DNA from: a virus
Reading direction: 5' to 3' (one strand)
DNA: 23,006 nt
Virus record (IMG/VR): IMGVR_UViG_3300047586_000361
Span: 1-23,006 of that record
Shown here: positions 1,639 through 11,316 of the stretch, one piece after another
Layout of the letters: each line of letters opens with the position of its first letter
Numbering within the stretch: the stretch's first letter is position 1
The notes under the pieces: generated by a model
What the model was told of the DNA's origin: nothing
The model's database searches: none
What the model saw: the letters and a program-made list of their open reading frames with translations, nothing else
Position numbers and translations under genes: made by a program

Positions 1639-1850
1639 CAGTAGTCCCTCGTCTGTCCCAGGAGGCGGACAAGCTTCAAGTGTTTGGCGCAAATGGGGTG
1701 CCCTTTGACGACCTGACGGCCGCAGTTCGACCACGAACAACGTAAGACACCTTCAGGGAGGGGGCGCAGGTTTCGCCTGTCTTTGATCTCGGCGATCTTT
1801 GCCAGCTCCCACGCACTCCACTCAATCGTGAGGCCATTACCATAGTTCAC
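1638..1850 (-). CDS. Small zinc-finger protein (C-x4-C-x10-C-x2-H)
   Basis: A 70-residue product if started at the GTG at 1850, which overlaps the end of the MptE-like gene. The zinc site is CSWSNC...KGHPICAKH (C38, C43, C54, H57). Its spacing is identical to that in the gene at 5021-5257, including a KG pair before the third Cys, so the two are probably paralogues. The N-terminal part is rich in Trp and charged residues (WSAWELAKIAEIKDRR). The SD is weak and the exact start uncertain. The stop overlaps the next gene by one base. Confidence 0.55.
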   Translation of the reverse strand: MNYGNGLTIEWSAWELAKIAEIKDRRNLRPLPEGVLRCSWSNCGRQVVKGHPICAKHLKLVRLLGQTRDY

Positions 1851-3186
1851 CTGATATAGGACGTCCTTCAGTGCCTGGAGCTTTGCCCGGTTCGTAGCCA
1901 ATCTTGGTGAGATATCCGTTATAGGAATCGAGTACGAGCTGGAAGTCGTAGGCGGGGGGCAGGGAGCGGAAGCCTCCTTCTGCCAATTTTTGAAAGTCGA
2001 CACGAGGCACCTCCGTGATAATGCCATCGGAACAGTCGAAAAGCGGAAGCTTGGTGATAACCCACGCGGTGAGCAGCGACCTCTTGTAGATCAGCATCGA
2101 CTCGTCGCAGACGTAGCCGTTGGCCGCACGAAGGATCTGGGAGTTGGTGATGATCGTGTCCCGGGGGGAGTTGACGTCGTGCGCATCGAAGTGGCCGTCA
2201 GGCTGCAAGACGAACGTCTTACAGCGAGAGGCGTGCTGCTTGTAGGCGAAGTCCACGCCCAGGAGGAAGACCGCGTCGAACTGGGGGATGATGGACATTT
2301 CCTGGAGGAGGTTCAGGAGCAAGATCTCGCCGTTTACCGCGCACCCCGCCTGATACATCATGTCGCGGATCATGGGGAAGAGCATATGACTGAACACGTT
2401 AAAGGGATGGTTCGCGCCTTGCTGCATCTGGATGATCGAGGTGAACCACTTGCGCGTGTTGGGGAACAGCGCCACCGCGTCGGGGTTCATCGCGGTGGGG
2501 GTGACGAGGGGCACGCCCAGAGCGTCATAGGGGACATAGGAAAGGTGATGGACGGTCCCAAAGCCGCTGTCCAGGGCGAGGATTGCATCAGGGTGGCGCC
2601 CTGCGGCAACCACCGCGCTGGCGTTGGAGGGTCCGCAGATGACAAGCCCCGGGAACGATGGGAGGAAGCGTGTCAGGTCGTCCAGGGACGAGCCGCTTCC
2701 GCAGATTACCGCGAGACGCGGATTCTTGACACGCGATATGTCCAAAGTGTGCGCCTGGATGAGGTCGCCACGGCGGGCGAAATCGTCGTAGATCACGCCC
2801 CCGTTGCGTCCCATGTTCGAGAACCACTCCTGTCCCCACTGCTGGAGGGTGAGGAAGTTGTCGAGGATGACTTCGTCGCTCGCGTCGAGGTCCATGCCTG
2901 CGGGTATGGGCATTCCCGCGTCGTTTCCGCCCTCCGCGTATTCAAGGTGGAAGGGAATGGCGTTGGGCGGGAGGACGGGCCCCCGCTGGTCGAGAGCGGG
3001 GGGGACGAGAAGCGGGCCGAAGCGTCGGCGCATGTTCGTGATCACTTGCTGGGCACCGAGTTCGTGGGCGGCTTTTGCCGCCTCAATCGCCAAGGCGACC
3101 ATCGCGCGGGGGGTCTCCGACTTGACGTCGAAGTCGGCTTCGGGGATGGGAAACGTCGATTCGTCAGTCTTGGTGTCGTCAGGCAA
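1837..3186 (-). CDS. MptE-like / DUF115 (MAF_flag10-type) protein
   Basis: A 449-residue protein whose core matches the DUF115 fold, shared by archaeal 6-hydroxymethylpterin diphosphokinase MptE and the Maf flagellin glycosylation factors. Visible motifs are CGSGSSLDD (about 162-170), a second strand with CGPSNAS (about 184-190), GRHPDAILALDSG (about 196-208) and FLLGVDFAY (about 307-315). In the family the GSGPSL-like loop binds the nucleotide donor. The N-terminal 150 residues are phage-specific and unrecognised. The start is a TTG with AAAAGGAG about 9 nt upstream. The gene lies first after the promoter at 3275-3304, with a leader of about 80 nt. It could be a glycan- or pterin-related transferase acting on a host or phage component; the substrate cannot be inferred. 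Confidence 0.7.
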   Translation of the reverse strand: MPDDTKTDESTFPIPEADFDVKSETPRAMVALAIEAAKAAHELGAQQVITNMRRRFGPLLVPPALDQRGPVLPPNAIPFHLEYAEGGNDAGMPIPAGMDLDASDEVILDNFLTLQQWGQEWFSNMGRNGGVIYDDFARRGDLIQAHTLDISRVKNPRLAVICGSGSSLDDLTRFLPSFPGLVICGPSNASAVVAAGRHPDAILALDSGFGTVHHLSYVPYDALGVPLVTPTAMNPDAVALFPNTRKWFTSIIQMQQGANHPFNVFSHMLFPMIRDMMYQAGCAVNGEILLLNLLQEMSIIPQFDAVFLLGVDFAYKQHASRCKTFVLQPDGHFDAHDVNSPRDTIITNSQILRAANGYVCDESMLIYKRSLLTAWVITKLPLFDCSDGIITEVPRVDFQKLAEGGFRSLPPAYDFQLVLDSYNGYLTKIGYEPGKAPGTEGRPISGELW

Positions 3187-5796: not shown

Positions 5797-5867
5797 GGTG
5801 AACGAGGGGAATCGAACCCCCACCTTTTGCTCCACAGGCAAACGTCCTACCGTTAGACGACGCCCAC
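5797..5867 (-). tRNA. tRNA-His (anticodon GTG)
   Basis: Read leftward, the gene folds as a full cloverleaf: acceptor GTGGGCG/CGTTCAC (two G-T pairs), U8, a 4-bp D stem, anticodon stem TTTGC/GCAAA with loop CTGTGGA, a 4-nt variable region, and T stem GGGGG/CCCCT with loop TTCGATT. The discriminator at 5797 is C, as expected for bacterial tRNA-His. Two oddities: the base before position 1 is T rather than the usual encoded G-1, and the 3' CCA is not encoded. It lies in the leader between promoter PL1 and the ArdA-like gene, so it must be cut from the polycistronic transcript. Confidence 0.9.
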
Positions 5868-6258: not shown

Positions 6259-6534
6259 ATGAGACGGAACTACGAAAAGGAAAAGGGCGAGTTCCCCGGA
6301 GCGTACGCCGTGAAGGGGTGGGGAAAGGGAATAGCATGGCGCGTCCTGGGCTGGGAGACCGAACCGGACGACGATACGGAATGGACGGGGATTGAGAATC
6401 GCACCGGGCGGATCGTCGCTGTTATGATCGGAGACGATAGGCATTTCTCTGTCGATCCTGATGATGTTAAGGCAATCGAGGAAGGTTCCTACTGTCCAGA
6501 GTGTGGCCAGATAGGGTGCGGGTGCTATCGATAG
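6259..6534 (+). CDS. Small phage protein with C-terminal zinc knuckle
   Basis: A 91-residue product: a basic N-terminus, a beta-rich middle (WRVLGWETE, RIVAVMIGDD) and a C-terminal Cys cluster CPECGQIGCGC (C79, C82, C87, C89), probably a zinc site. The ATG at 6259 has GGAGGG 8 nt upstream. It is first in the rightward early group. Codons are more A/T-rich than in the structural genes. Function is unknown; it resembles short early phage proteins of the kind that modulate host enzymes, which is a guess. Confidence 0.65.
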   Translation: MRRNYEKEKGEFPGAYAVKGWGKGIAWRVLGWETEPDDDTEWTGIENRTGRIVAVMIGDDRHFSVDPDDVKAIEEGSYCPECGQIGCGCYR

Positions 6535-6553
6535 AGAAAGGAAGGGTAAAGAG

Positions 6554-7024
6554 ATGTTCACAAGGCAACACTACAAGGCGATAGCGGAGATGATTTCCGA
6601 ATTGAGCGAGGATATCGTCAACGCGAACGGAGAAAAGGAGACGGTTGTCCATAAAGGTCGGCTCGTTTCGGAGCTGGCGCGATTCTTTGCACGTGATAAT
6701 GAACGGTTTTCACGCGAACGGTTTGAAGACGCGTGCAAGAGGAGAGCGACCATGTATAGGCTCGTCTTGACGAAATGCGAGCGAGACGCGTTTGACTGGG
6801 TAGGGAATCGCTATTCAAACGGGGACGATATGCGGAGGAATATCGAACCGTTTCCCGTCAACGCGGAGGATTCCTGGGATAGCACGGGAGATGTTGCCTT
6901 TGATCTGCCAGAGTATGCCGCGTGGGATATCGCAATCTTAGCGAAGCAGGATGAGGGATTGTTTCCGTGCTTTGCATGGAAGCTGGCAGAGAAAATGCGC
7001 GCATTCATCGACGCAATCGTATAG
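6554..7024 (+). CDS. Fused two-domain early phage protein with internal start
   Basis: A 156-residue product made of two parts that I know as separate small proteins in other phages. Residues 1-65 (FTRQHYKAIAEMISEL... then DNERFSRERFEDAC) are of the widespread 'MFT-HY-IA...NPRFDRERFL-AC' type. Residues 67-156 start MYRLVLTKCERDAFDWVGNRY and end CFAWKLAEKMRAFIDAIV, matching a second family that normally begins at that Met. The join is in frame at 6752, where ATG still has a GGAG SD 7 nt upstream (6741-6744). A shorter second product of 90 residues is therefore likely besides the full fusion. No enzyme motif is visible. Family recognition is from memory. Confidence 0.65.
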   Translation: MFTRQHYKAIAEMISELSEDIVNANGEKETVVHKGRLVSELARFFARDNERFSRERFEDACKRRATMYRLVLTKCERDAFDWVGNRYSNGDDMRRNIEPFPVNAEDSWDSTGDVAFDLPEYAAWDIAILAKQDEGLFPCFAWKLAEKMRAFIDAIV

Positions 7025-7044
7025 ATAGAAGGGAGCATAGAGGT

Positions 7045-7239
7045 ATGGGAAACAATCGATTGAGGGTAAGCACGGCAAGAGACGGGACACGAACGGTGGA
7101 AGATCGTCGCACCGGGGCGTGGTACCTCGTGAAGCATGGGCGGATTATCGACTATGGAGTCAAGCGTGCAACGTGTCTTTTGCACCTAGGGGTGCTCGAT
7201 CACGAGCTGTCATGCGGCAGCGTGGACGGAGGGGATTGA
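7045..7239 (+). CDS. Small early phage protein
   Basis: A 64-residue product, MGNNRLRVSTARDG..., basic at the N-terminus with a strand-rich middle (WYLVKHGRIIDYGVKRA). This resembles a DUF-type single-domain protein of the kind that often follows the family at 6752-7024. I chose the ATG at 7045 (AGAGGT and GGGAG upstream) rather than earlier starts inside the preceding gene. It ends 1 base before the next ATG, with the ribosome binding site of that gene inside its 3' end. Function is unknown. Confidence 0.55.
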   Translation: MGNNRLRVSTARDGTRTVEDRRTGAWYLVKHGRIIDYGVKRATCLLHLGVLDHELSCGSVDGGD

Positions 7240-7240
7240 A

Positions 7241-7672
7241 ATGGGAATCGACTATGGAATGGGAATGACTAACATAGACAAGAGTAACGGCATCAGGTAT
7301 GGCGTTATCTCACAGAATGAAGTTTTGCAAGCGTGGGCAGATTCGAGCGAACCGTGGTACGGAGAGGAATCGGAATGGCCGAAAGACGAGGATGGCGAAC
7401 CGTATCTCGACGATATGGCGGAACCGTTGTCTTTCACGTATGAAGAGGAAGGGTACATGGCGGAATGCGGAGAAGACGGAGATATCTTTATCACGAAGTC
7501 GCCGTTCTATACGTTCTGTTCGTTCTGTTCGCCGTGCGCACCGGGGGCAGGATATTTGATGTCGAAGGATGACGGAGTGAGAGCGTATTGCTTCGGACAC
7601 GACTGGTTTGAAGGGGATAAAGCCCCGTATGAAGTCTACAGAGTGAGTGATGATAGGCTCGTCAGAGCGTAG
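7241..7672 (+). CDS. Conserved phage protein with CSFCSPCAPGAG motif
   Basis: A 143-residue product, very acidic in the middle. The start MGIDYGMGMTNIDKSNGIRYGV and the Cys-rich motif CSFCSPCAPGAG (C93, C96, C99), followed by CFGHDWF (C117, H120) and APYEVY, are characteristic of a conserved hypothetical family in phages and mobile elements. The family has no known function. The Cys/His set suggests a bound metal. The ATG at 7241 has GGAGG 8 nt upstream. It is last in the early rightward unit, 16 nt before the terminator hairpin. Confidence 0.75.
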   Translation: MGIDYGMGMTNIDKSNGIRYGVISQNEVLQAWADSSEPWYGEESEWPKDEDGEPYLDDMAEPLSFTYEEEGYMAECGEDGDIFITKSPFYTFCSFCSPCAPGAGYLMSKDDGVRAYCFGHDWFEGDKAPYEVYRVSDDRLVRA

Positions 7673-7688: not shown

Positions 7689-7717
7689 AGCCTCCCCTAA
7701 CGGGGAGGCTTTTTATT
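7689..7717 (+). terminator. Strong intrinsic terminator of early rightward unit
   Basis: A perfect 9-bp stem AGCCTCCCC/GGGGAGGCT closes a TAAC tetraloop (7698-7701) and is followed by TTTTATT. It lies 16 nt after the stop of the last early gene. In the leftward direction the hairpin is not followed by a U-tract, so it should work one way only, although a leftward small gene ends inside its loop. Confidence 0.9.
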
Positions 7718-7861
7718 CGAGGGGGGGAAGGTTTTTCGCTCAAGGTCGGCAATGGCAAGGTCGTAAACGCGGCCGCGCGTGAGGGCGAGGGCGCGAGCGA
7801 GAGCGGAAACGCGGGAGGGCAGGTTCGGATCGGCGGTGGAAAAGGAAATTGTCATACGCAT
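7697..7861 (-). CDS. Ribbon-helix-helix-like small DNA-binding protein
   Basis: A 54-residue product: a short N-terminal strand (MRMTISFS), then two helices separated by a turn (SRVSALARALALTRGRV and YDLAIADLERK), and a basic Pro/Lys tail. This is the size and layout of an Arc/CopG/MetJ-type ribbon-helix-helix domain, whose dimers place the N-terminal strand in the DNA major groove. Its stop lies in the terminator loop at 7697-7699. No SD is visible; a TATACT at 7871-7866 would place the transcript start at or next to the ATG, so the message may be leaderless. The adjoining palindromes (7917-7936, 7994-8011) are obvious candidate operators. The family is inferred from pattern only. Confidence 0.5.
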   Translation of the reverse strand: MRMTISFSTADPNLPSRVSALARALALTRGRVYDLAIADLERKTFPPSNKKPPR

Positions 7862-7916
7862 GGTAAGTATATCGGTAGAGTTTAGAGAAAAGATAAGTAA
7901 TTTTTTTAGCGTAGCG

Positions 7917-7936
7917 TTAGCATAGGGTAATGCTAA
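7917..7936. repeat. Palindrome TTAGCAT-N6-ATGCTAA
   Basis: Perfect 7-bp arms at 7917-7923 and 7930-7936. The arms resemble the iteron with one base changed (TTAGCAT versus TTAGCGT), so a protein that binds the iterons might bind here as a dimer. It lies 56 bp upstream of the ribbon-helix-helix-like gene, so it could also be its operator. Confidence 0.6.
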
Positions 7937-7993
7937 TGAAAGTTAGAGTTCTAAGTATTTTAAGTCGTGATAGGGGAAGGAATTGGGAGACGT

Positions 7994-8011
7994 ACTATAC
8001 AGATGTATAGT
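7994..8011. repeat. Palindrome ACTATAC-N4-GTATAGT
   Basis: Perfect 7-bp arms (7994-8000 and 8005-8011), 5 bases before the tandem iterons. It has an 18-bp operator-like size, is A+T-rich, and contains -10-like TATAGT and TATAC motifs on both strands. It could regulate transcription into the origin. Confidence 0.6.
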
Positions 8012-8091
8012 GAAAGTTAGCGTATTAGCGTAGGGTCTGTACCTTATCACTTTTTTTCCCTCAATCAAAAACACCCTCAAGACTCTGCTAA

Positions 8092-8220
8092 TACGCTAAT
8101 ACGGCTCTCTCTCTCTCTCTCTCTCTCTCATAACTCTATATAAGAGAAGAGAATACAGCGAATAGGGACGGGAAAAACCGTTTGCTTTCAGGTACGCTAA
8201 CGGACGCGAAATTACGCTAA
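8092..8220 (-). repeat. Iterons TTAGCGTA, leftward copies
   Basis: The reverse complement TACGCTAA occurs exactly at 8092-8099, 8193-8200 and 8213-8220. Bases around 8086-8103 repeat CTAATACG in tandem, mirroring the tandem at 8017-8032. With the three rightward copies this makes an opposed 3+3 arrangement over 315 bp. Confidence 0.8.
8105..8130. repeat. (CT)13 dinucleotide tract
   Basis: Thirteen uninterrupted CT units lie between the leftward iterons at 8092-8099 and 8193-8200, followed by an A+T-rich stretch (CTCTATATAAGAG). Such homopurine-homopyrimidine mirror repeats can form triplex or unwound DNA and are prone to length change. Confidence 0.85.
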
Positions 8221-8222
8221 TT

Positions 8223-8242
8223 CTATCCACAAGTTATCCACA
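8223..8242 (+). promoter_or_regulatory. Tandem DnaA boxes
   Basis: TTATCCACA at 8234-8242 is the exact consensus DnaA box. CTATCCACA at 8223-8231 differs by one base and is spaced 11 bp away, about one helical turn, so both would face the same side of the DNA. They directly follow the last iteron (8213-8220), as in many iteron-DnaA origins. Confidence 0.75.
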
Positions 8243-8245
8243 AGA

Positions 8246-8263
8246 TACTGTAAGGTAACAGTA
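8246..8263. repeat. Palindrome TACTGT-N6-ACAGTA
   Basis: Perfect 6-bp arms (8246-8251 and 8258-8263) immediately right of the DnaA boxes and just beyond the leftward terminator U-run. It looks like an operator. It resembles the gammaproteobacterial LexA box, but the gap is two bases too short. Confidence 0.5.
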
Positions 8264-8350
8264 AAGAAAAAGGCGCCCTCAGGGGCGCCTGACAAGATGA
8301 TAGGTTTCCGCTCTTCGTTCGTTCTCATTTCGTTTACCCTTCCTTCCATG
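8260..8350 (-). ncRNA. Predicted short leftward RNA beside the origin
   Basis: An extended -10 (8364-8356) and an intrinsic terminator (8290-8262) face the same way, bounding a transcript of about 80-90 nt that points at the DnaA boxes and iterons. It contains a purine-rich GGAAGGAAGGG near its 5' end, followed 8 nt later by an ATG that opens a frame through the terminator (MRTNEERK...). That peptide is unlikely but possible. Small RNAs next to phage and plasmid origins often control initiation, which is the basis for the inference. No known RNA family is recognised. Confidence 0.45.
8262..8290 (-). terminator. Leftward intrinsic terminator of short transcription unit
   Basis: On the leftward strand the 8-bp stem AGGCGCCC/GGGCGCCT (arms 8290-8283 and 8278-8271) closes a 4-base loop and is followed by TTTTTCTTTAC (8270-8260). 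Read rightward there is no U-run. It lies about 60 nt downstream of a predicted start near 8349. Confidence 0.8.
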
Positions 8351-8355
8351 AGTGA

Positions 8356-8364
8356 AGTATAGCA
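8356..8364 (-). promoter_or_regulatory. Leftward extended -10 promoter of short RNA
   Basis: Read leftward, this is TGC followed by TATACT: an extended -10 with a near-consensus hexamer. No -35 is visible in the G+C-rich DNA upstream, as is usual for extended -10 promoters. A transcript would start near 8349. Confidence 0.6.
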
Positions 8365-8377
8365 CGCGCGGGCGGAT

Positions 8378-8394
8378 GCCTGCCGAAAGCAGGC
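8378..8394. repeat. Hairpin GCCTGC-CGAAA-GCAGGC in possible packaging region
   Basis: A perfect 6-bp stem with a 5-base loop. It is followed by a second potential stem made of CCCCC and GGGGG runs around 8397-8420. Both lie about 100 nt before the first gene of the terminase operon. No U-run follows. They could be part of a pac/cos-type recognition site or a leader structure; sequence alone cannot decide. Confidence 0.4.
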
Positions 8395-8513
8395 CCACCC
8401 CCGTTTGGACGCAGGGGGTCGCGCGAGAGAAGAATCGTCTTTCCACCCCGCCGACCCCTGCACCCTTCCCGTGTCGCCTTTAAGGTTGGTGCGCGTCCCG
8501 TCGATAAGGAAGC

Positions 8514-8783
8514 ATGAGACTACGAAAACGCTACGCAACGAAAGACCGCACCGTGGACGCCTTGCACTACGTCTCGGGTGAGAACAGTCCCGCTTTCGTC
8601 GACCTCCTTCCCAGCGCCGCCATCTCCATGGACGGGACGCACCTCATCGTGAAGACCCCCGGGCAGACCCTGTCCCTCGCCCCTGGCGACTGGCTCCTCC
8701 TGCACCCTGAGGGCGACCTGGAGACGCTCACCGACGCCCAGTTCTCCGCGCGCTACACCTCGTCGGTCAAGAAGCTCAAGTGA
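8514..8783 (+). CDS. Conserved small phage protein with PGDW motif
   Basis: An 89-residue product with the motif APGDWLLLHPEGDL (about residues 56-69) followed by TDAQFSARYTSS. It matches a widespread family of small phage proteins with a PGDW(I/L)...F...Y pattern and no established function. The ATG at 8514 has AAGGA closely upstream. It is the first gene of the rightward packaging operon; its TGA overlaps the next GTG. It is a beta-rich cytosolic protein, possibly a structural or regulatory accessory. Confidence 0.65.
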   Translation: MRLRKRYATKDRTVDALHYVSGENSPAFVDLLPSAAISMDGTHLIVKTPGQTLSLAPGDWLLLHPEGDLETLTDAQFSARYTSSVKKLK

Positions 8784-9211
8784 GAGCGAAGAAGACGACG
8801 CGCAAAATCGTTCGTGCGAAAGCACGGAAACAAGAGGCATCTGCCCCTGTTGATGAAGCGCCTCTTCCTTCGATGCCTTCCGTCCCCCTGGTGTCCTCGC
8901 CTCATGCGATCCTGGACGAAGCGGTGGCCGTCGCTGCGCGCACCATCGCCAACGCGGCCGAAGGGGTCGAAATCTCCCGAGAGCAGCTTTCCGCCGCGCA
9001 GGACATCCTCAACAGGAAAGGCATTACCTCGGGGGGGCAGCGCAGTAACGCGATCCCCGAGGACTATGCCAGGGCCTCCCTCGCCTACGTGTTTCGCCTT
9101 CTGGGGTTTGGCGAAATCAAGTGGCCCCAAACGCTCGTTGCGACGCTCACCGCCAAAGACGACGCCCTTGTCTCCGCGGACGACTTCAACGCGGCACTTC
9201 AGGACGTATGA
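8780..9211 (+). CDS. Terminase small-subunit-like protein
   Basis: A 143-residue product: a very basic, probably disordered N-terminus (KKTTRKIVRAKARK), then helices with AARTIANAAEGVEISREQLSAAQDILNRKG (split about 52-81). The second of these resembles the 'aa..iL.r.G' helix common in small terminase and related DNA-recognition proteins. The C-terminal 50 residues are helical. It lies two genes upstream of the large terminase, as expected. The GTG start overlaps the previous stop as GTGA and has no strong SD, so translation is probably coupled. The family call depends more on position than on motif. Confidence 0.45.
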   Translation: MRAKKTTRKIVRAKARKQEASAPVDEAPLPSMPSVPLVSSPHAILDEAVAVAARTIANAAEGVEISREQLSAAQDILNRKGITSGGQRSNAIPEDYARASLAYVFRLLGFGEIKWPQTLVATLTAKDDALVSADDFNAALQDV

Positions 9212-9495: not shown

Positions 9496-9704
9496 AAGAT
9501 GTCTTCTTCCTCCCGACGCTGCCCGTCCCGTCAAGACAAGTCACCGCCCGAGGCTGGATAGAACGTGAAAGCCCCAAAGTCGAAGTTCGAGATCCTTCCG
9601 CACCACGAGGCGCCGCTGTTCAGCAAGGAAAACGTGCGAAATCCCAAGCGCCTCATGCAGGCGATAAAGGCGGAGCTGGAAAGCGGGCGCGTAAGCGCCT
9701 CTGA
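9492..9704 (+). CDS. Possible small ORF overlapping large-terminase start
   Basis: ATG at 9492 overlaps the preceding TGA as ATGA, the arrangement used throughout this genome. The first 38 residues (MKDVFFLPTLPVPSRQV...) look plausible, while the last 30, overlapping the terminase start in another frame, are a low-complexity Gly/Lys/Arg string. It may be a real short peptide used to couple translation into the terminase gene, whose own GTG has a poor SD, or it may not be a gene. Evidence is weak. Confidence 0.3.
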   Translation: MKDVFFLPTLPVPSRQVTARGWIERESPKVEVRDPSAPRGAAVQQGKRAKSQAPHAGDKGGAGKRARKRL

Positions 9705-11316
9705 GATGTTCCTCGCGCTGCTTCGTCAGGCTTCCCTCGTATCCCTTTTCTTCTTCCTTACACATGTAGCGGCGTATAGCGGACCCTACGAGAAACTCAA
9801 CGAAGGCCTCCACTTGGAGATGGCCAACTTCAGACAGAGTGATGCGTGCATGAGGGATGGCGCCCGCGCTGCGGCGATCCTTTTCAGGTCCTCGTTCAAG
9901 TCGACGGTGTGCGGCCACGGGGCGGACTCATGGGAGGCTTTGCGCAACCCGAATATCCGCGTACGAATCGTCTCGGAAATCGTCGAGAGAGCCCACTCGT
10001 TCAAGAACATCATCAAGTCGACGTTTGATTCGAACTCGTTCTTCGCCCTCATCTTCCCCGAGTACGTCCCGGGGAAGGCGTCGTCAAGGTGGAACGAGAC
10101 GGAGATCGTCCTGCCCAATAGGACGCGAAACTACACCGAATCGACCATCAGCGCAGGAGGCGCCACCGGCGCTTCCGAAGGCATTCACGTTGACCTCCTG
10201 GACGTGGACGACATCCACGGGATCGAGGACGTTGACAGTCAACATCGCGCCAACGCGTCGATGTTGCAGAAGAAGAAGTGGTTCGCTACGAATGCGACGA
10301 CGCTCCTTGTGAATCTGAGGTCCAGGATCAATCTCCGGGGGACGTTCTACGGCGCGGATGACGTGCACTCGGCGATCATGTCCGATGCGGTCGCGATCCT
10401 CGGATACCGCGACCCTGAGTTTGCCGAACGTCCAGGCGGGACGTGGACGGTGTACTATCGGTGCTGGATCGAGGACGACGTGGAGGTCTTCCCCGAGGTC
10501 ATGGACAAGGCACGCTACGCCAAGCTTCTCGAAGAAGACCCCTGGACGGCGATCACGCAGTACGGGAACAAGGCGAGGGACCCCCTTGTCAGTGAGTTCT
10601 TCAAGTTCACTACGAAGCGCGCTCGCCTTCTCTGGAGCCCCAAGAAGCAACAGTGGTTTCTCCAGAAGGGAGCCCTTGCCGAGACGGAGGCGTCCAACTG
10701 GGAGGACGAGGAGAGCGTGAAGGTACGCCCTCTGGCAGCGATGGCGGTGGGGATGTTCGTCGACCCCGCGGGGACGGACAGGGGCATCTCCGCAAAGGCG
10801 TCCAAGAGCGCGGTGGAGATCATCGCCGTGGACGACGAGGAGAACGCGTACCTTGTGTGGTGCAGGGCGGGGTACTTCAGCGTGCACGCGCTGTTCGACG
10901 CCATCTTCGAGGGGTGCGTGAAGTTCGAAGGGGTCGTGGGAGTCGTAGGGGTTGAGTCGAATGCGATGCAGAAGATTATCGCACCGCTTCTGGAGAAAGA
11001 GCGCAGGGCGAGAAACTTCTACATAAATCCTGTTCCCATCATGGCCTCGGGGGACAAAGAGGCGCGCATCAGGATGAACGTGGGACGCGCGCTGAAGAAG
11101 GGGCAGGTCTACCTCGTCGAGGGGGAAGAGAGGGAGTTCGAAGAAGAGCGGATGTTGTTCCCCGGGAACGAGTTCAGACGGGACGTGCTGGACGCGTTTG
11201 AGAAGGGACTGACGTATCTGCAAAAGCCTCCGTCAAAAGCGGAGGAAGCGTACGACGAAGAGGAGTTCGAGGACTTCGTGACAGAGACGACGCGGGACCG
11301 ATGGACGGGAATGTAA
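9565..11316 (+). CDS. terL: Terminase large subunit (packaging ATPase and nuclease)
   Basis: A 583-residue protein that powers DNA translocation into the prohead and cuts the concatemer. The N-terminal ATPase shows an atypical Walker A, ILFRSSFKST (about 105-114), and a Walker B, LLDVDDIHG (about 211-219). The C-terminal RNase H-like nuclease shows FVDPAGTD (D400), GVESNAMQK (E464) and FRRDVLDAFEKGL (D540, D543), the usual three acidic clusters. Length is normal for the family. The start is a GTG at 9565, chosen because an in-frame TAG lies 6 bases upstream. It has only a weak SD (GGAT) and may be translated by coupling. It is followed 14 nt later by the portal gene. Confidence 0.92.
   Translation: MKAPKSKFEILPHHEAPLFSKENVRNPKRLMQAIKAELESGRVSASEMFLALLRQASLVSLFFFLTHVAAYSGPYEKLNEGLHLEMANFRQSDACMRDGARAAAILFRSSFKSTVCGHGADSWEALRNPNIRVRIVSEIVERAHSFKNIIKSTFDSNSFFALIFPEYVPGKASSRWNETEIVLPNRTRNYTESTISAGGATGASEGIHVDLLDVDDIHGIEDVDSQHRANASMLQKKKWFATNATTLLVNLRSRINLRGTFYGADDVHSAIMSDAVAILGYRDPEFAERPGGTWTVYYRCWIEDDVEVFPEVMDKARYAKLLEEDPWTAITQYGNKARDPLVSEFFKFTTKRARLLWSPKKQQWFLQKGALAETEASNWEDEESVKVRPLAAMAVGMFVDPAGTDRGISAKASKSAVEIIAVDDEENAYLVWCRAGYFSVHALFDAIFEGCVKFEGVVGVVGVESNAMQKIIAPLLEKERRARNFYINPVPIMASGDKEARIRMNVGRALKKGQVYLVEGEEREFEEERMLFPGNEFRRDVLDAFEKGLTYLQKPPSKAEEAYDEEEFEDFVTETTRDRWTGM

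Follow-up and report, generated by a model that had tools for sequence, protein, structure and literature searches.

Genomic context of the array

The window, meaning the whole 23,006-bp stretch of DNA analysed here, is a fragment of an IMG/VR virus record. Its array of short repeats lies between a rightward gene block (6259-7672), beyond which leftward genes predominate, and a series of exclusively rightward genes that encode a putative TerS (8780-9211), TerL (9565-11316), the portal and the major capsid protein, with TerS being named from its position and its relative in locus L003. This locus, which was reached via the capsid gene and is part of the 51.6-kb record G001, is the closest syntenic relative, sharing ~70% DNA identity with the window and remaining syntenic from 7241 to the window end. 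The features of the array region are as follows.

7689-7715, plus strand: intrinsic terminator that ends the rightward gene block and faces the array
7864-7963: least stable 100 bp of the window in a nearest-neighbour profile, a candidate unwinding element, overlapping block A
7906-7936: iteron block A, with TTAGCGTA at 7906 (+), the weaker copy TTAGCATA at 7917 (+) and the weaker copy TTAGCATT with its core at 7932 (-)
8017-8032, plus strand: iteron block B, a head-to-tail TTAGCGTA pair (8017 and 8025) that aligns with GTTAGCGTTATTAGCGTGTTAGCGTC in L003 (1982-2007)
8084-8099, minus strand: iteron block C, TTAGCGTA at 8092 and the weaker, degenerate copy TTAGCAGA with its core at 8087; the L003 counterpart is a GCTAA core at 2100
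8105-8129: simple-sequence tract (CT)12C, replaced by (ATT)8 at this place in L003/G001
8193-8220, minus strand: iteron block D, two leftward TTAGCGTA copies (8193 and 8213); the leftward cores of L003 are at 2179 and 2189
8223-8231 and 8234-8242, plus strand: DnaA-box-like 9-mers CTATCCACA and TTATCCACA, in the window only
8271-8290, minus strand: intrinsic terminator that faces the array from the right

The first-pass annotation had described the region as gene-free, which holds for 7862-8513, except that a small minus-strand transcription unit may end at the terminator at 8290-8271. A TATACT box at 8356-8361 and this terminator could bracket a short RNA of <100 nt; in G001 the place of 8270-8361 is taken by two small ORFs, and an Rfam search returned a tRNA as its sole match. 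A tRNA-His (GTG) gene is at 5797-5867 (-), and to its left are a Lar-like ORF (903-1187), a YAcAr/SLOG-like ORF (387-737) and an MptE-like protein (1837-3186, -) which matches PF01973 below the cut-off and is conserved in G001. Directly adjoining the array is a 54-aa ORF (7697-7861, -) whose sequence reads as ribbon-helix-helix (RHH)-like, with a TATACT box (7866-7871) a few bases before its start, so that it is possibly leaderless. It has no Pfam or PHROG match and no relative in G001; its structural model, with a single helix (pLDDT 72), is not an RHH fold and is uninformative.

Organization of the iterons

The six exact TTAGCGTA sites that had been claimed, three forward and three reverse, are all present, and counting them across the 23,006-bp record returns no copy outside the array, meaning that the iterons are not scattered but confined to ~310-315 bp. 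When one mismatch is allowed, 17 sites are found against 5.6 expected, a number reached in 0 of 100 shuffles. When the 652-bp region was dinucleotide-shuffled 1000 times, non-simple octamers reached at most 4 copies, compared with the 6 observed. The TTAGC core is similarly concentrated, as 9 of the window's 13 cores fall in the array (the six exact copies and the three degenerate ones). Several short identical repeats clustered in noncoding DNA or in an initiator gene are a feature of iteron-type phage theta origins of the lambda ori and SPP1 oriR kind, and the cluster seen here is kept in L003.

The simple-sequence tract had been given as (CT)13 among the leftward iterons; it is (CT)12 plus C, and it is located between two leftward groups, C and D. 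The TTAGCGTA octamer is also found at L021 5656-5700, in an unrelated 65-kb phage contig, as a one-directional tandem array of (TTAGCGTA)n with (TTAGTATA)n.

Conservation in the closest syntenic relative

A search of relatives found the array in L003/G001, where it is kept though the neighbouring small genes differ. On the reversed strand of G001 it falls at 12.9-13.3 kb. In L003, 9 of the 11 TTAGC cores of the 20.9-kb locus lie within 265 bp, forward and then mostly reverse, while the locus as a whole has fewer cores (11) than shuffling predicts (21). Between the same conserved neighbours, the L003 spacer contains GTTAGCGTTCGTTAGCG, GTTAGCGTTATTAGCGTGTTAGCG, a reverse core, (ATT)8, and one forward and two reverse cores. 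When the two spacers are aligned, 37 of the 56 iteron columns are identical (66%) versus 160 of 383 other columns (42%). The inward-facing intrinsic terminators also bracket the array in both the window and G001, the L003 elements being terminator-like hairpins: a hairpin plus T-run at ~1797-1825 and a hairpin followed by T at 2250-2271 match the places of the left and right terminators, respectively.

The DnaA boxes follow a different pattern. The two DnaA-like 9-mers proposed for the window were confirmed, 11 bp apart, yet none of TTATCCACA, TTGTCCACA, TTTTCCACA or CTATCCACA is present in the entire 51.6 kb of G001. The conserved DnaA boxes of a DnaA-dependent origin are thus not seen, and the DnaA half of the suggested iteron-plus-DnaA origin fails in comparison; as the boxes are not conserved in the closest relative, such an arrangement is lineage-specific at best. 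They may have an auxiliary role for host DnaA in the window's lineage only.

Comparison with G001 also bears on whether the array is an operator and promoter control region, in which the repeats would be operators for a regulator, either the 54-aa RHH-like protein or an early/late switch protein, with promoters inside the array. The RHH-looking ORF does begin at the array edge with a -10-like TATACT box, a sigma-70-like promoter is matched at 7983-8011, and in the more distant phages vir526 and G037 the arrays sit where early and late genes diverge, as would suit such a switch. However, G001 keeps the array but not a relative of the ORF, which in the window itself lacks both a modelled RHH fold and a database match; the single promoter-like match is at shuffle level (0.7 expected), and inward-facing terminators bound the array in both genomes. 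Because of the terminator brackets and the loss of the ORF from G001, we consider operator function unlikely.

The same layout with other repeats

More distant phages hold arrays of similar layout in which the repeat sequence differs. Circular vir526 (BK063670; TerL 35% identical) has its array in a stretch of ~1 kb that lacks annotated genes and precedes the terminase genes, and its AAAATGCA layout is common to L012 and L014. A further pair, G036/G037, was reached through the gene adjoining the window's array; the G037 portal falls in the same PHROG families as the window's, whereas its TerL is different. The repeat positions in these phages are as follows.

vir526, 393-430, 739-764, 822-841 and 973-993: AAAATGCA/TGCATTTT groups around a TA-rich tract (877-930)
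G036/G037, 11055, 11066, 11131, 11140 and 11330: TAGTCC
G036/G037, 11089, 11352, 11466 and 11479: GGACTA

The G036/G037 array includes a GAA purine tract, and the CT tract of the window is not a constant element but belongs to a set of simple-sequence tracts, with (ATT)n, GAA-purine and TA, that replace one another. The order of copy orientations across lineages was dropped as evidence, as it is ambiguous in an array that can be read from either side. The listed host of vir526 is Methanomicrobiales, yet the phage encodes groES-like, PolA-UDG and DUF3987 genes, and a hairpin-T terminator of bacterial style (1915-1937) is present in the near-identical L014; it may be worth checking the host assignment.

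Scanning IMG/VR for the motif returned 30 contigs, mostly with plain tandem repeats unrelated to the array, and besides L003 only L023/G008 had opposed groups at its least stable 60 bp. In G008, an unrelated 32-kb phage, opposed TTAGC groups surround a TA tract that forms the least stable 100 bp of the phage; ~2 kb away is a gene with a weak resemblance to DUF3987, and a primase gene comes after it. As the motif was the sole search key for G008, only layout, instability and neighbours count as evidence. Within this AT-rich phage, TTAGC groups with 10-bp spacing occupy L057 17220-17511, reverse to the left and forward to the right of the TA-rich tract, and this segment is likely an origin in its own right. 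Among the 30 contigs, a DUF3987 match was found only in L003/G001 and G008, with G006/vir526-like being added separately; the link for G008 is weak because its match is below the curated cut-off.

The layout is not general in phages with DUF3987. No clear equivalent array was found in PaP2, Vibrio phage ABTNL-3, MW202489 or MW202554, and the array is not generally present among the DUF3987 phages in INPHARED. L065 has no equivalent array, L064 and L068 have a weak one at most, and in L048 the corresponding place is a gene-free, A+T-rich stretch of 1.1 kb without clear iterons. Single-sequence terminase and MCP scans gave few relatives, and a profile search of genome contigs with a TerL alignment gave none.

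The position of these arrays relative to the terminase genes informs the possibility of a packaging signal (pac or cos) with repeats bound by the small terminase subunit. Terminase small subunits do bind repeated sites, and the genes for the putative TerS and TerL lie downstream of the array, with TerS 0.56 kb away in the window and ~0.8 kb away in G001. A pac or cos site would be expected in or against terS, which the array does not touch; the pac of SPP1, for example, overlaps gene 1 itself (PMC6316719). In vir526, a ~2-kb gap with other genes precedes the gene before TerL, and TerL is >3 kb from the array in G037 and 10 kb in G008. The array is the end of neither the window nor G001, and low duplex stability is no hallmark of pac. 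With a distance to the terminase genes that is variable and sometimes large, a packaging signal is disfavoured and appears quite improbable.

Duplex stability and GC skew

The local A+T-richness that had been claimed is clear, with 38.8% GC in the array region versus 58.9% in the record. The least stable 100 bp coincide with the left edge of the array, not with the CT tract, and in vir526 they sit between two repeat groups. The chance that the least stable 100 bp of a record would overlap the array is ~0.018 for the window, 0.007 for G001 and 0.015 for G037, figures that do not amount to a formal joint test, as the window and G001 are not independent, the vir526 array is only the second-ranked repeat cluster there, and the G037 array ranks third in its locus. 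An adjacent, easily melted element, as in iteron-type phage theta origins, is therefore present here.

A change in GC skew occurs at the array as had been anticipated, but its sign is mixed. In both vir526 and G037 the array coincides with the minimum of the cumulative skew, the sign expected of an origin, although this is confounded with gene orientation since the genes diverge there too. The window and G001 show the opposite of what a standard bidirectional origin would give, with positive skew on the left side of the array and negative skew on its right. The resulting local skew maximum, together with opposed groups of 8-bp iterated sites, would suit a centromere-like partition site or a replication fork barrier. 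A strongly destabilised tract is unexpected at such sites, vir526 and G037 have skew minima instead, no ParA/ParB pair could be recognised in the vicinity of the array, and neither an integrase nor a partition gene was noted among the listed G001 ORFs, part of which were scanned; we regard this explanation as very improbable.

A proposed lytic replication origin

In bringing these data together, a replication origin is the best-supported function, as the position and form of the array are conserved and coincide with the least stable DNA. The origin claim of the first-pass annotation therefore survives in its iteron part and loses its DnaA part, and the skew is of mixed sign. We consider it fairly probable that 7862-8245 is the lytic replication origin of a tailed phage, of the iteron-plus-unwinding-element kind for which SPP1 oriR is an established precedent. 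This reading is weakened by the reversed skew sign in the window and G001, by the ~25 kb that separate the G001 array from the genes for the helicase and the HTH protein, and by the other DUF3987 phages without a clear equivalent array.

Initiator binding, melting and replication start at the array are what we infer. A phage-encoded initiator, encoded elsewhere, would bind the 8-bp TTAGCGTA iterons in forward (A, B) and reverse (C, D) orientation, and once bound could bend the DNA between them or wrap it. Opening would then take place in the unstable, A+T-rich stretch within and beside block A and the simple-sequence tract, the phage replicative helicase would load at the opened DNA, and the inward-facing terminators would keep transcription out of the array.

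The best initiator candidate comes from gene association. G001 has consecutive genes for a DNA polymerase, a DUF3987 protein and a two-HTH protein (146 aa), and the same trio is found in vir526: the polymerase aligns full-length with the UDG-PolA protein of vir526, the DUF3987 proteins are 31% identical, and the two-HTH proteins share 28% identity (E = 0.003). By this association only, the two-HTH protein that follows the UDG-PolA and DUF3987 helicase/primase genes is the candidate. In the genome of the window, the trio would fall in the part missing from the fragment.

More tentatively, and with considerable doubt, these arrays might form a class of lytic origins in which opposed 8-9-bp iterons surround an unstable tract, with layout and genome position kept while the iteron sequence (TTAGCGTA, GTTAGCGT, TAGTCC, AAAATGCA) is swapped between lineages, served by a so far undescribed HTH initiator that acts with a DUF3987 helicase/primase and is encoded at a distance. 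Origins that combine iterons with an unwinding element are already established as a type, and PLE satellites provide a precedent for iteron exchange between relatives (PMC8263062). In a limited, incomplete literature search, no description was found of short iterons in an opposed layout whose sequence changes between lineages.

Origins are unknown for most uncultured tailed phages. A recognisable signature, with short iterons in opposition at a gene-free spot of lowest stability that terminators bound and that separates early genes from terminase, could allow sequence-based calling of origins in these lineages. The suggested PolA-UDG/DUF3987/HTH operon supplies a definite candidate for the initiator, and lineage-to-lineage replacement of the iteron sequence would be a natural series for the evolution of initiator specificity.

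Comparison with known origins

Opposed initiator sites flank an AT-rich element in SaPI, archaeal ORB and SV40 origins. The array studied here is likened to these by layout alone, having two opposed groups of sites around or beside an unwinding tract.

The SPP1 origins oriR and oriL, served by the initiator gp38, are alike in combining short repeats with an AT-rich unwinding element. oriR consists of direct repeats and an AT-rich DUE, is intergenic and away from initiator gene 38, and is located in the late region with transcription signals on both sides; oriL, ~13 kb away, is within gene 38 (PMC6316719). The ~25-kb separation of trio and array in G001 can be likened to that between oriR and oriL. 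In contrast to the direct repeats of SPP1, forward and reverse groups are opposed here, and no homologue of gp38, gp39 or gp40 was identified, and the relatives carry PolA-UDG and DUF3987 genes.

The lambda and Stx phage origins have O-protein iterons bound by a phage initiator next to an AT-rich tract (PMC7466680), and the present iterons likewise adjoin such a tract, with initiator binding here only proposed. The lambda iterons are ~19 bp long and form one array of 4-6 copies inside gene O, whereas nine 8-bp copies are arranged here in opposed groups, outside any gene.

The PLE satellite origin with RepA is a noncoding iteron origin in which iteron and initiator specificity are exchanged as a module (PMC8263062). 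PLE1 differs in that its RepA is known and its three iterons are semi-palindromic and ~30 bp long; as in the PLEs, the lineages compared here vary in their repeat sequence.
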